64,000 bases of DNA from Candidatus Calditenuaceae archaeon (GTDB taxonomy: Archaea > Thermoproteota > Nitrososphaeria_A > Caldarchaeales > Calditenuaceae), in assembly GCA_025058175.1 (NCBI GenBank), contig JANXED010000001.1, positions 1 to 64,000 on the forward strand, written 5' to 3'. Both the position numbers and the translations under genes were made by a program. Positions within the stretch are counted from its first letter, which is position 1, and the number at the start of each line of letters is the position of its first letter. Below the pieces are notes generated by a model that worked only from the letters and a program-made list of their open reading frames with translations, was not told the origin of the DNA and did no database searches. Below, piece after piece: positions 4,784-16,624 of this stretch.

Positions 4784-5203
4784 ATGTCGACCACTTACGA
4801 GGTGCCCAGCGGGCTGAGCTACTCTAGGAACCACGAGTGGGTCAGGCAGAAGGGCAAGTACGCGGTGATCGGGGTCACGGACTACGTCCAGAAGAAGCTG
4901 CGGGAGATACTCTACGTGGAGCTCCCGAACATCAACACCAAGCTCACCAGAGGCCAGCACCTCGCGACGATCGAGTCGGTCGGGGGGAGCCACGAGGTGA
5001 GGGCCCCGGTCAGCGGGAAGATAGTTGAGGTGAACGCGAGGCTCATCGACAGCCCCGAGCTGATCAACGAGTACCCCTACGAGGACGGTTGGATCTGCAG
5101 GATGGAGGTCTCGGACCCGACGGAGCTAGAGGACCTGATGCAGCCCGACGAGTACACTAGATACATCGAGGAGCTTGAGCTGGAGGCTAGCGAGACCGAG
5201 TGA
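4784..5203 (+). CDS. GcvH-like protein lacking the lipoyl lysine
   Basis: 139 residues, full length for glycine-cleavage H protein, whose job is to carry a lipoyl-bound aminomethyl group. The fold markers are all there: NHEWV (16-20), a VGVTDYVQ-like strand, PVSGKIVEVN (75-84), DSPELIN and a C-terminal PYEDGWI. But the modification site, normally ESVK, reads ESVG (64-67; codon GGG at 4982-4984), followed by GSHEV. It therefore cannot be lipoylated at the usual place. No other glycine-cleavage gene is nearby. Possibly a structural or regulatory paralogue; function unknown. Convergent with the aldo/keto reductase. Confidence 0.8.
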   Translation: MSTTYEVPSGLSYSRNHEWVRQKGKYAVIGVTDYVQKKLREILYVELPNINTKLTRGQHLATIESVGGSHEVRAPVSGKIVEVNARLIDSPELINEYPYEDGWICRMEVSDPTELEDLMQPDEYTRYIEELELEASETE

Positions 5204-14233: not shown

Positions 14234-14923
14234 ATGAGCGTCCCGGAGAAGCAGGAGGTGCTGGTCGTGAACGGCTGCGCTCTGCCGAGGATGGCCCTCT
14301 ACGACCTCGAGAACGAGAGCTGGTACCTCGAGGAGGACGACGTCATCAGGGTTGGGGTGCTCCCCACCACGCAGACGAAGTGGGGCAAAGTTACCTCCGT
14401 GAGGCCCAAGACCCCAGGGACCGTCGTTGAGGAGGGGAGGTCGCTGGCGTTCGTCGAGGCTAAGAAGTTCGTGGGACGCGTCAACGCGAGGTTCAAGGTC
14501 GAGGTCTTGGAGGCGAACCGAGAGCTCCTCGAGGTCCCGCACCTCTGCCAGTCCGATCCCTACGGACGTGGATGGATCGTCGAGGTTAGGCCGCTCGAGG
14601 CAGGGTACAGGGAGAGGCTCAGGACGTTCGACGAGGCAGCGGACGTCCTCCGCGAGGAGATCAGGAGCAGGGGGATCATGTGCTTCAGGGAGGTCCCGGA
14701 CGTCGTGATGGCGGCCCTGGGGGTCGAGTGCAGCCAGGCGCTGCTAGTCCTGGCCGACGCGATAAGGCATGTCCCTCCGGGGCAGGTGATCCACTTGGTC
14801 GCTGAGGCCGACGAGAACGCTGAGCGGGAGGTCAGGGCCTGGGCGAGGGTCACCGGCAACGAGCTCCTCGAGTTCGCGCTGGAGGGCAGGCTGGCTCACG
14901 CGTTGATCAAGAGGCGTGGGTGA
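14234..14923 (+). CDS. GcvH-like lipoyl-carrier domain fused to a TusA-like sulfurtransferase domain
   Basis: 229 residues. Residues about 28-120 align with glycine-cleavage H protein: NESWYL for HEW, RVGVLPTTQ, PGTVVEEG, then EAKK (75-78) in the place of ESVK, with Lys78 at the lipoylation position, and DPYGRGWIVEV near the end of the domain. Residues about 155-229 align with TusA/SirA sulfurtransferases: ALGVEC (C166 at the persulfide-carrying Cys), PPGQVIHLVAEAD and a C-terminal ALIKR. The Cys-Pro of TusA is Cys-Ser here. A linker (about 121-153) joins them. Lipoyl carriers and TusA meet in the sHdr sulfur-oxidation pathway, so intramolecular sulfur transfer is a reasonable inference. Monocistronic between TiaS and an ABC exporter. 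Confidence 0.72.
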   Translation: MSVPEKQEVLVVNGCALPRMALYDLENESWYLEEDDVIRVGVLPTTQTKWGKVTSVRPKTPGTVVEEGRSLAFVEAKKFVGRVNARFKVEVLEANRELLEVPHLCQSDPYGRGWIVEVRPLEAGYRERLRTFDEAADVLREEIRSRGIMCFREVPDVVMAALGVECSQALLVLADAIRHVPPGQVIHLVAEADENAEREVRAWARVTGNELLEFALEGRLAHALIKRRG

Positions 14924-14949: not shown

Positions 14950-15876
14950 GTGATCTCTCGGATGGGCGCGGCGGTCGAGTCGGAGGACCTCTGGAAGACC
15001 TACGACGGCCAGAACTGGGTCCTGAAGGGCGCGACCCTCACGGTCAACGAGGGCGAGGTCTTCGCGCTCCTCGGGAGGAACGGAGCCGGGAAGACGACCT
15101 TCATCAGGATAGCCTGCACGCTCCTCAAGCCCAGCAGGGGGACGGTCAGGGTGCTTGGGCGCGACGTCATCGCGGACGCTGGGTGGATCAGGAGGAGGAT
15201 CGCGGTGGTGCCGCAGGAGGGGAGGCCGTCGAACCTCTCGACGCCATGGGCCCACGTCTACTACTACCTGATCGCTAGGGGGATGCCCAGGAGCGAGGCC
15301 GCGAGGAGGGCGAGTGAGTACCTCGAGGCGATGGAGCTTTGGGAGGTCAAGGACGTGATCTGCGGCAACCTCTCAGGAGGGATGAGGCAGAGGGTCTACG
15401 TCGCGATGGCGATGGCGACCGAGGCCGACGTCCTCTTCCTCGACGAGCCAACGATCGGGCTGGACCCCATCTCGAAGACGACGATGTGGTCCCAGATCAG
15501 GAGGGCCTCCGAGGAGGGGAGAACCGTCATAGTCACCACCCACAACATGGAGGAGGCCGAGACGATCTCCGACAGGGTCTCGATCATCAACGCCGGGAGG
15601 ATCGTCGTGACCGGGAGCGTCGAGGAGGTGATGAGTGCCGTCGAGTACGATTACAGGGTCGACGTCGAGGGGATGGCTGACCCGCAGGAGCTCAACGCCT
15701 ACGGTCCCGTCAGGCGGATCGGTGACCGGTTTAGGGTCCTAACGACCGCGTCCGGCGCGAGGGAGCTCGCGGAGGTCGCGGTCGAGAGGGGTTGGAGGGT
15801 GAACGTCTCCAAGACCTCGCTCGAGGACGCCTTCATCTTATTGGCGGGTGGTCACGTTGAGGATGAGGCTCGCTGA
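14950..15876 (+). CDS. ABC-2 type exporter, ATP-binding protein
   Basis: 308 residues. Walker A GRNGAGKTT, Q-loop VVPQEG, signature LSGGMRQR, Walker B VLFLDEPT, H-loop TTHNMEE are all present. The C-terminal 80 residues form the accessory domain of DrrA/NatA-like subunits. GTG at 14950 is used; ATG at 14962 is equally possible. Its end overlaps the permease gene by 29 nt, so the pair forms one exporter, substrate unknown. Confidence 0.9.
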   Translation: MISRMGAAVESEDLWKTYDGQNWVLKGATLTVNEGEVFALLGRNGAGKTTFIRIACTLLKPSRGTVRVLGRDVIADAGWIRRRIAVVPQEGRPSNLSTPWAHVYYYLIARGMPRSEAARRASEYLEAMELWEVKDVICGNLSGGMRQRVYVAMAMATEADVLFLDEPTIGLDPISKTTMWSQIRRASEEGRTVIVTTHNMEEAETISDRVSIINAGRIVVTGSVEEVMSAVEYDYRVDVEGMADPQELNAYGPVRRIGDRFRVLTTASGARELAEVAVERGWRVNVSKTSLEDAFILLAGGHVEDEAR

Positions 15877-16624
15877 GGGCTTAGTCCACTTCGTGAAGTC
15901 GGTTTACGCCTCGACGATGCTCTTCGGGGTGATCCCGTTCAAGCAGAACCCACTCTGGTCGCTCTCGCCGATGCTGGCGCCGATGGCCTTCCTCCTCTTC
16001 CTCTCGGTCTACGGGATACGTGAGATCGTGCCTTACGCGCTGATAGGTGGGATGACCTCGATCGTCGTCGCGAACTCGATCACGATGGAGTCGGACGCGG
16101 CCTTCAACAGGCTGATCCTGAAGATAGAGTCGATGTTCGTCCTAACGAGAGGCGGCCTGATACCCTACGCGGTGGGGTTGGCGCTCGGGAACCTGATCAA
16201 CGCGCTGCCGGGGATGCTGGTCTTCGGGGCGTTACTCTGGACCCTCGCAGGGGTGAACCAGCTCTGGAGCTGGGCGGTGTTCCTAGGAGCGCTGGCGGCG
16301 ACGTGGGCGATCGTCTCCATGGTGGGCTACTACATCAGCACGTTCGCACGGGACATCAGGGACCTCTGGGTCTACTCGCCGATCTTCACCGGCGTCTTCT
16401 CCTACCTGCCACCGGTCTTCTACCCGCTCGAGAGGATCCCGTGGACTGAGCTGAAGTATTTCGCGTACGTCTCCCCGACCACCGCGCCCGCGAGGCTGAT
16501 GCAGGCGGCCGCTGGCCTCGTGAGTATCACTTGGACCGAAGCCCTCCTCCTCTGGCTGTTGCTCCTGGTCCACGGCTCGATCGTCTTCGTTCTGCTCCAC
16601 CGCAGGCTAAGGAGGCCCATCTGA
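15848..16624 (+). CDS. ABC-2 type exporter, permease protein
   Basis: 258 residues with about six transmembrane helices (for example around 37-55, 60-75, 105-130, 150-170, 185-200 and 230-250), the ABC2_membrane layout, and the conserved SPIFTGVFSYLPPVFYPLERIP region between helices 5 and 6 (in shortened form PPVFYPLERIP). Start GTG at 15848 lies inside the ATPase gene; ATG at 15863 is an alternative. Partner of the preceding ATPase. Confidence 0.85.
   Translation: MVTLRMRLAEGLVHFVKSVYASTMLFGVIPFKQNPLWSLSPMLAPMAFLLFLSVYGIREIVPYALIGGMTSIVVANSITMESDAAFNRLILKIESMFVLTRGGLIPYAVGLALGNLINALPGMLVFGALLWTLAGVNQLWSWAVFLGALAATWAIVSMVGYYISTFARDIRDLWVYSPIFTGVFSYLPPVFYPLERIPWTELKYFAYVSPTTAPARLMQAAAGLVSITWTEALLLWLLLLVHGSIVFVLLHRRLRRPI

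Follow-up and report, generated by a model that had tools for sequence, protein, structure and literature searches.

A conserved fusion of an LbpA-like domain and TusA in Calditenuaceae and Nitrososphaeria-type archaea: a candidate three-cysteine sulfur carrier able to work without lipoate

A gene in the DNA that we analysed (the window, 64,000 nucleotides from a Candidatus Calditenuaceae archaeon) encodes a 229-residue protein in which an H-fold domain related to the lipoate-binding protein LbpA is joined to a TusA domain. The fusion belongs to a family of 33 full-length proteins from 32 genomes, found in Calditenuaceae, in one further family of its order and in archaea of the Nitrososphaeria type. 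With a probability that we put at about 60%, it is a sulfur carrier with three cysteines, fed by a rhodanese and able to work without lipoate.

Results

The open reading frame (14234–14923, + strand) holds an H-fold, LbpA-like domain at residues 9–150 (14258–14683, + strand), followed by a TusA domain at residues 157–226 (14702–14911, + strand). Pfam GCV_H (PF01597) matched residues 23–141 with an E value of 9.6e-21, above the cut-off, and TusA (PF01206) matched residues 162–226 with an E value of 2.2e-6, its 27.9 bits lying just below the curated cut-off of 28.6. Both families were matched at E < 0.01 by all 19 homologues of the order. A sequence search of solved structures with the fusion protein as the query returned H-proteins best and TusA (3LVJ) at an E value of 0.002. 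An AlphaFold2 model, for which the input alignment consisted of 11 Calditenuaceae-type sequences, had a mean pLDDT of 93.5 and a pTM of 0.87; Foldseek matched its first half to the H-protein 1ONL (TMt of 0.89) and its second half to chain C of 3LVJ, Escherichia coli TusA in complex with IscS (TMt of 0.81). The original prediction had read the protein as an H-protein fold followed by TusA with its cysteine in place, and this assignment is borne out, with both profiles matching and a C-terminal half that is TusA-like in structure. The presence of the two domains in a single chain is confirmed, and the 33 full-length homologues rule out a chimera or frameshift artefact.

Full-length fusions were found in relatives in a search of 101 genomes. 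When the window protein alone was used as the query against genome contigs no relative was found; the scan of the contigs gave matches with an alignment of Calditenuaceae sequences only. Among 44 genomes of the order, a profile search found the fusion in 19, comprising 11 of the 12 genomes of the window's own family (all but G004), identified as Calditenuaceae from named records, and all eight of family f4, and it found none in families f2 or f3. A set of 398 genomes across the phylum added fusions in families f41, f45, f47 and f58. Members of f41 and f45 contain archaeal AmoA and are therefore ammonia oxidisers; AmoA was not found in the searched members of f47 and f58. Partly from these AmoA results, we provisionally take f45 to be Nitrososphaeraceae and f41, f47 and f58 to be Nitrososphaeria; G014 is presumably Ca. 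Caldarchaeum. Two diverged copies of the fusion (L063 and L064) are present in G299, one with a rhodanese gene beside it and the other near a contig end.

Eight residues are invariant in the alignment of the 33 fusions (C15, Y23, G41, G51, N95, W114, C150 and C166), and three of these are cysteines, in a family with a median pairwise identity of 29% and a minimum of 19%. Cys15 (14276–14278, + strand), which also occurs in eight two-cysteine LbpA copies, and Cys150 (14681–14683, + strand), which lies at the domain junction, correspond to the N- and C-terminal signature cysteines of LbpA, and Cys166 (14729–14731, + strand) is the predicted persulfide cysteine of TusA. The spacing between Cys150 and Cys166 is fixed at 16 residues in all 33 proteins. 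According to Cao et al. (2018, PMC6067878), LbpA from sHdr clusters has a strictly conserved lysine and, except in some archaea, two cysteines, one near each end, that GcvH does not have; the authors compare the C-terminal one to the sulfur-binding cysteine of SoxY. Cys15 and Cys150 align with the LbpA cysteines of six Sulfolobaceae-type genomes and of two genomes of the window's order (G003 and G025). Because the second LbpA cysteine lies near the C terminus, the fusion reads as an LbpA running directly into TusA.

A tree of H domains was built with position 78 omitted and with a degenerate paralogue from G018, which has neither W30 nor the lysine, excluded. LbpA-like proteins, the fusions among them, are separated from GcvH in this tree at 100/100, and the fusions form one group (95/74, not starred) within the LbpA-like proteins. 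The first half of the fusion is kin of LbpA, which binds lipoate in sHdr sulfur oxidation; the tree and the cysteines together rule out a GcvH identity.

The residue that follows the TusA cysteine is serine in 18 of the fusions, glutamate in seven, alanine in six and asparagine or proline in one each. The window protein has CSQA in place of the CPxP motif. The serine after Cys166 had been singled out in the original prediction as a possible means of tuning the thiol; it is present, but it is not special to this protein, since the position is variable and the loss of Cys-Pro is a mark of the whole fusion family. That prediction contained neither the invariant Cys15 and Cys150 with their match to the LbpA signature nor the lack of conservation of Lys78 among the homologues.

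Invariant cysteine pairs are structural in many protein families, and the H-like half might serve only for structure or docking, its cysteines binding a metal or forming a structural disulfide while the TusA half alone carries sulfur. The pattern of conservation fits such a role, in that the lysine at position 78 varies freely while the fold residues Y23, G41, G51, N95 and W114 are fixed. Against it, the same two cysteines occur in sHdr LbpA, where the C-terminal one has been likened to the SoxY cysteine (PMC6067878), and we regard this explanation as unlikely.

Lys78 (14465–14467, + strand) does align with the lipoylation lysine, as originally predicted, and in the window protein it is accompanied by Glu75 and Gly81. 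The position is unconserved in the family, with 12 lysines, 17 arginines, two asparagines, one valine and one isoleucine (n = 33), and it has undergone at least nine changes on the tree among 28 fusion rows. Lysine is kept in all 20 stand-alone LbpA-like rows of the tree. Lysine and arginine alternate even inside single genera, namely the window's genus and g92 of f41. In 14 of the 32 fusion genomes, AmoA-positive single-contig ones among them, no LplA/LipB catalytic domain (PF21948) scored above the cut-off; six of these 14 belong to genus g4 and four each to f41 and f45. A survey from 2014 reported no lipoylation genes in the Thaumarchaeota known at that time (PMC3904984).

The original prediction placed the persulfide cysteine and the lipoyl arm in one chain, where sulfur could change hands inside the molecule. 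As a mechanism, this would have a lipoylated Lys78 accept the sulfur of the TusA cysteine and make the fusion an all-in-one sHdr carrier. The lysine with its Glu75 and Gly81, a single LplA/LipB-family gene in the window's genome and the kinship of the first half with lipoylated LbpA all speak for such an arm. Lysine is also commoner alongside a ligase, which was found in 9 of the 11 genomes with a lysine-bearing fusion versus 9 of the 21 without. Some members may therefore be lipoylated, possibly including the window protein, with both Lys78 and a ligase-family gene in its genome. However, the lysine is substituted in 21 of the 33 homologues, and the lysine-bearing fusions of G261 and G274 come from genomes in which no ligase was found. 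Judged from the sequences, a lipoyl arm does not hold as a trait of the whole family. Given that most members have lost the lysine, sulfur is probably passed on through cysteines and not through a lipoyl arm.

The relation to the sHdr pathway bears on the same question. A search with HdrB from G003 detected homologues only in three Sulfolobaceae-type genomes, G003 and G025, and thus none in 30 of the 32 fusion genomes, several of which are incomplete. No shdr core gene was found near the fusion gene, and HdrB of G003 lies on a different contig from the fusion. Both of the HdrB-positive fusion genomes also have a separate LbpA and a ligase. In G003, which belongs to the window's genus, an sHdr-like cluster that is apart from the fusion (L067:3040-9397, G003:C13) encodes TusA, DsrE, an ArsR-type regulator, LplA, an LbpA with two cysteines and the lysine, a further DsrE, and ferredoxin-like (Fer4), CCG and FAD proteins. 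Since G003 has this full cluster plus the fusion, the separate sHdr proteins are not replaced by the fusion, and a role as a stand-in for sHdr components is ruled out. The predicted link to sHdr thus survives as kinship of the first half with LbpA and fails as co-occurrence with HdrB; a survey of the 32 fusion genomes did find an LplA/LipB-family gene in 18. The rarity of HdrB and the separate LbpA, TusA and ligase of G003 count further against the lipoyl arm as an sHdr carrier, which we consider improbable. The window's genome has a stand-alone TusA of its own (L102:5958-8317, G000:C70), around which the open reading frames resemble the DsrE and ArsR-type genes of the G003 cluster.

Other H-fold proteins were also seen. 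A GcvH-type gene in the window (4784–5203, + strand) has glycine in place of the lipoylation lysine (ESVGGSHEV), and the same site is glycine in G003 and arginine in G001. The glycine dehydrogenase P-protein (PF02347) was not found in the four genomes of the window's genus, some of them incomplete, or in three of g4, and it was found in G005 and in family f4. Glycine cleavage seems to have been lost while an H-like protein was retained. The fusion-less genomes of genus g6 carry several H-fold paralogues close together (L093, G018:C1:121447-122522), one of them without the lysine (EYGTRVM).

A frequent neighbour of the fusion gene is a two-domain rhodanese (PF00581 in two stretches), whose closest PDB relatives are thiosulfate sulfurtransferases. 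At 15 of the 19 fusion loci of the order it is the next gene upstream, on the same strand. At 13 of 14 loci of the other families it is no more than about 5 kb away, mostly as an adjoining convergent gene, and the fourteenth locus is near a contig end. In raw counts that ignore shared descent, the rhodanese occurs in 31 of the 32 fusion genomes versus 91 of the 366 other genomes sampled from the phylum, and in 18 of 19 versus 1 of 25 in the order. Many fusion-less genomes have it, which rules out an exclusive partnership. Among the genomes of the window's genus, G001–G003 have it, away from the fusion and with no pattern of adjacent genes common to all three, and it was not found in the window's own genome (G000), which is only 57% complete. 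A SIS-domain gene, TiaS and TrmO were rejected as partners, these neighbours being unconserved across the fusion family.

Downstream of the fusion by 26 bp is the gene for an ABC transporter ATPase (14950–15876, + strand; PF00005, E value of 6.5e-30), probably co-transcribed with it, and this gene is overlapped by that for an ABC-2-type permease (15848–16624, + strand; PF01061, E value of 5e-6, just below the cut-off). A fusion that serves this transporter, for example by helping to export a sulfur compound or to sense it, would agree with the presence of both genes directly after it in five genomes only (G000–G003 and G005), but ABC genes are not directly beside it in the other neighbourhoods examined, so the transporter is at most a local addition and such a function is very improbable.

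Discussion

The proposal of a rhodanese-fed carrier builds directly on the fusion itself, on both folds as recognised by profile and model, on the three invariant cysteines and on the loss of the lysine in most members, as well as on the many hosts in which lipoylation enzymes or sHdr HdrB were not found on the linkage and co-occurrence of the rhodanese and on the relationship of the first half to LbpA. We infer the persulfide chemistry, the direction and steps of transfer, the thiosulfate source and the acceptor as follows. The two-domain rhodanese would take up sulfane sulfur, probably from thiosulfate, and transfer it to Cys166 in the TusA domain. Cys150, 16 residues upstream at the domain junction, and/or Cys15 would then hold or receive the sulfur before it leaves the fusion for a downstream acceptor. 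The LbpA-like domain would act as a protein-docking scaffold that supplies two thiols, with no need for lipoate. Several points count against a rhodanese-fed carrier: in the window's genus (G000–G003) the rhodanese is not beside the fusion, and it was not found in the incomplete G000; the co-occurrence counts ignore shared descent; the TusA domain has no CPxP and scores just under the Pfam cut-off, and the window protein has Lys78 together with an LplA/LipB-family gene in its genome.

In a broader version of this proposal, the fused LbpA-TusA would have shed its lipoyl arm on repeated occasions and turned into a relay of three cysteines, fed by rhodanese and independent of lipoate. Ammonia-oxidising archaea as well as Calditenuaceae and relatives would use it for general sulfur supply, e.g. 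for thiolation or Fe-S assembly. We hold this tentatively, at slightly worse than even odds.

LbpA is known for carrying lipoate in the sHdr pathway. We found no description of a fusion of LbpA or GcvH with TusA in the open-access papers searched, and the original prediction likewise knew of no described example. Each domain is known, and what sets this family apart is that the two are fused, outside sHdr, with the LbpA cysteines kept and the lysine discarded. Retention of these cysteines in a conserved fusion that gives up the lysine suggests a separate function for them, with implications for the mechanism of LbpA in sHdr as well. The fusion further points to an undescribed route of sulfur transfer in ammonia-oxidising archaea that is testable in cultured species.

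With LbpA of sHdr, the fusion shares the H-protein fold, the two signature cysteines near both ends, its position in the tree and the motif E-x-x-K/R-x-x-G at the lysine site. It differs in that the lysine, strictly conserved in LbpA, is mostly replaced (lysine in only 12 of 33), in that no lipoate ligase gene lies directly beside it and HdrB was not found in 30 of 32 hosts, and in that a TusA domain comes directly after the second cysteine. The second half has the fold of TusA (PF01206; E. coli TusA, 3LVJ) and, as in TusA, its active cysteine where the first helix begins, but it has no CPxP, stands behind an H-fold domain and scores just under the Pfam cut-off. The first half shares its overall fold with GcvH (PF01597) of the glycine cleavage system, whereas the fusion falls in a separate clade (100/100) and has extra cysteines, and no P-protein was found in the window's genus. 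The rhodanese/TusA/DsrE cascades of sulfur oxidisers likewise pair a rhodanese gene with a TusA-bearing protein; here, in contrast, an LbpA-like domain precedes TusA in the same chain, and the hosts include ammonia oxidisers without a detected sHdr HdrB.
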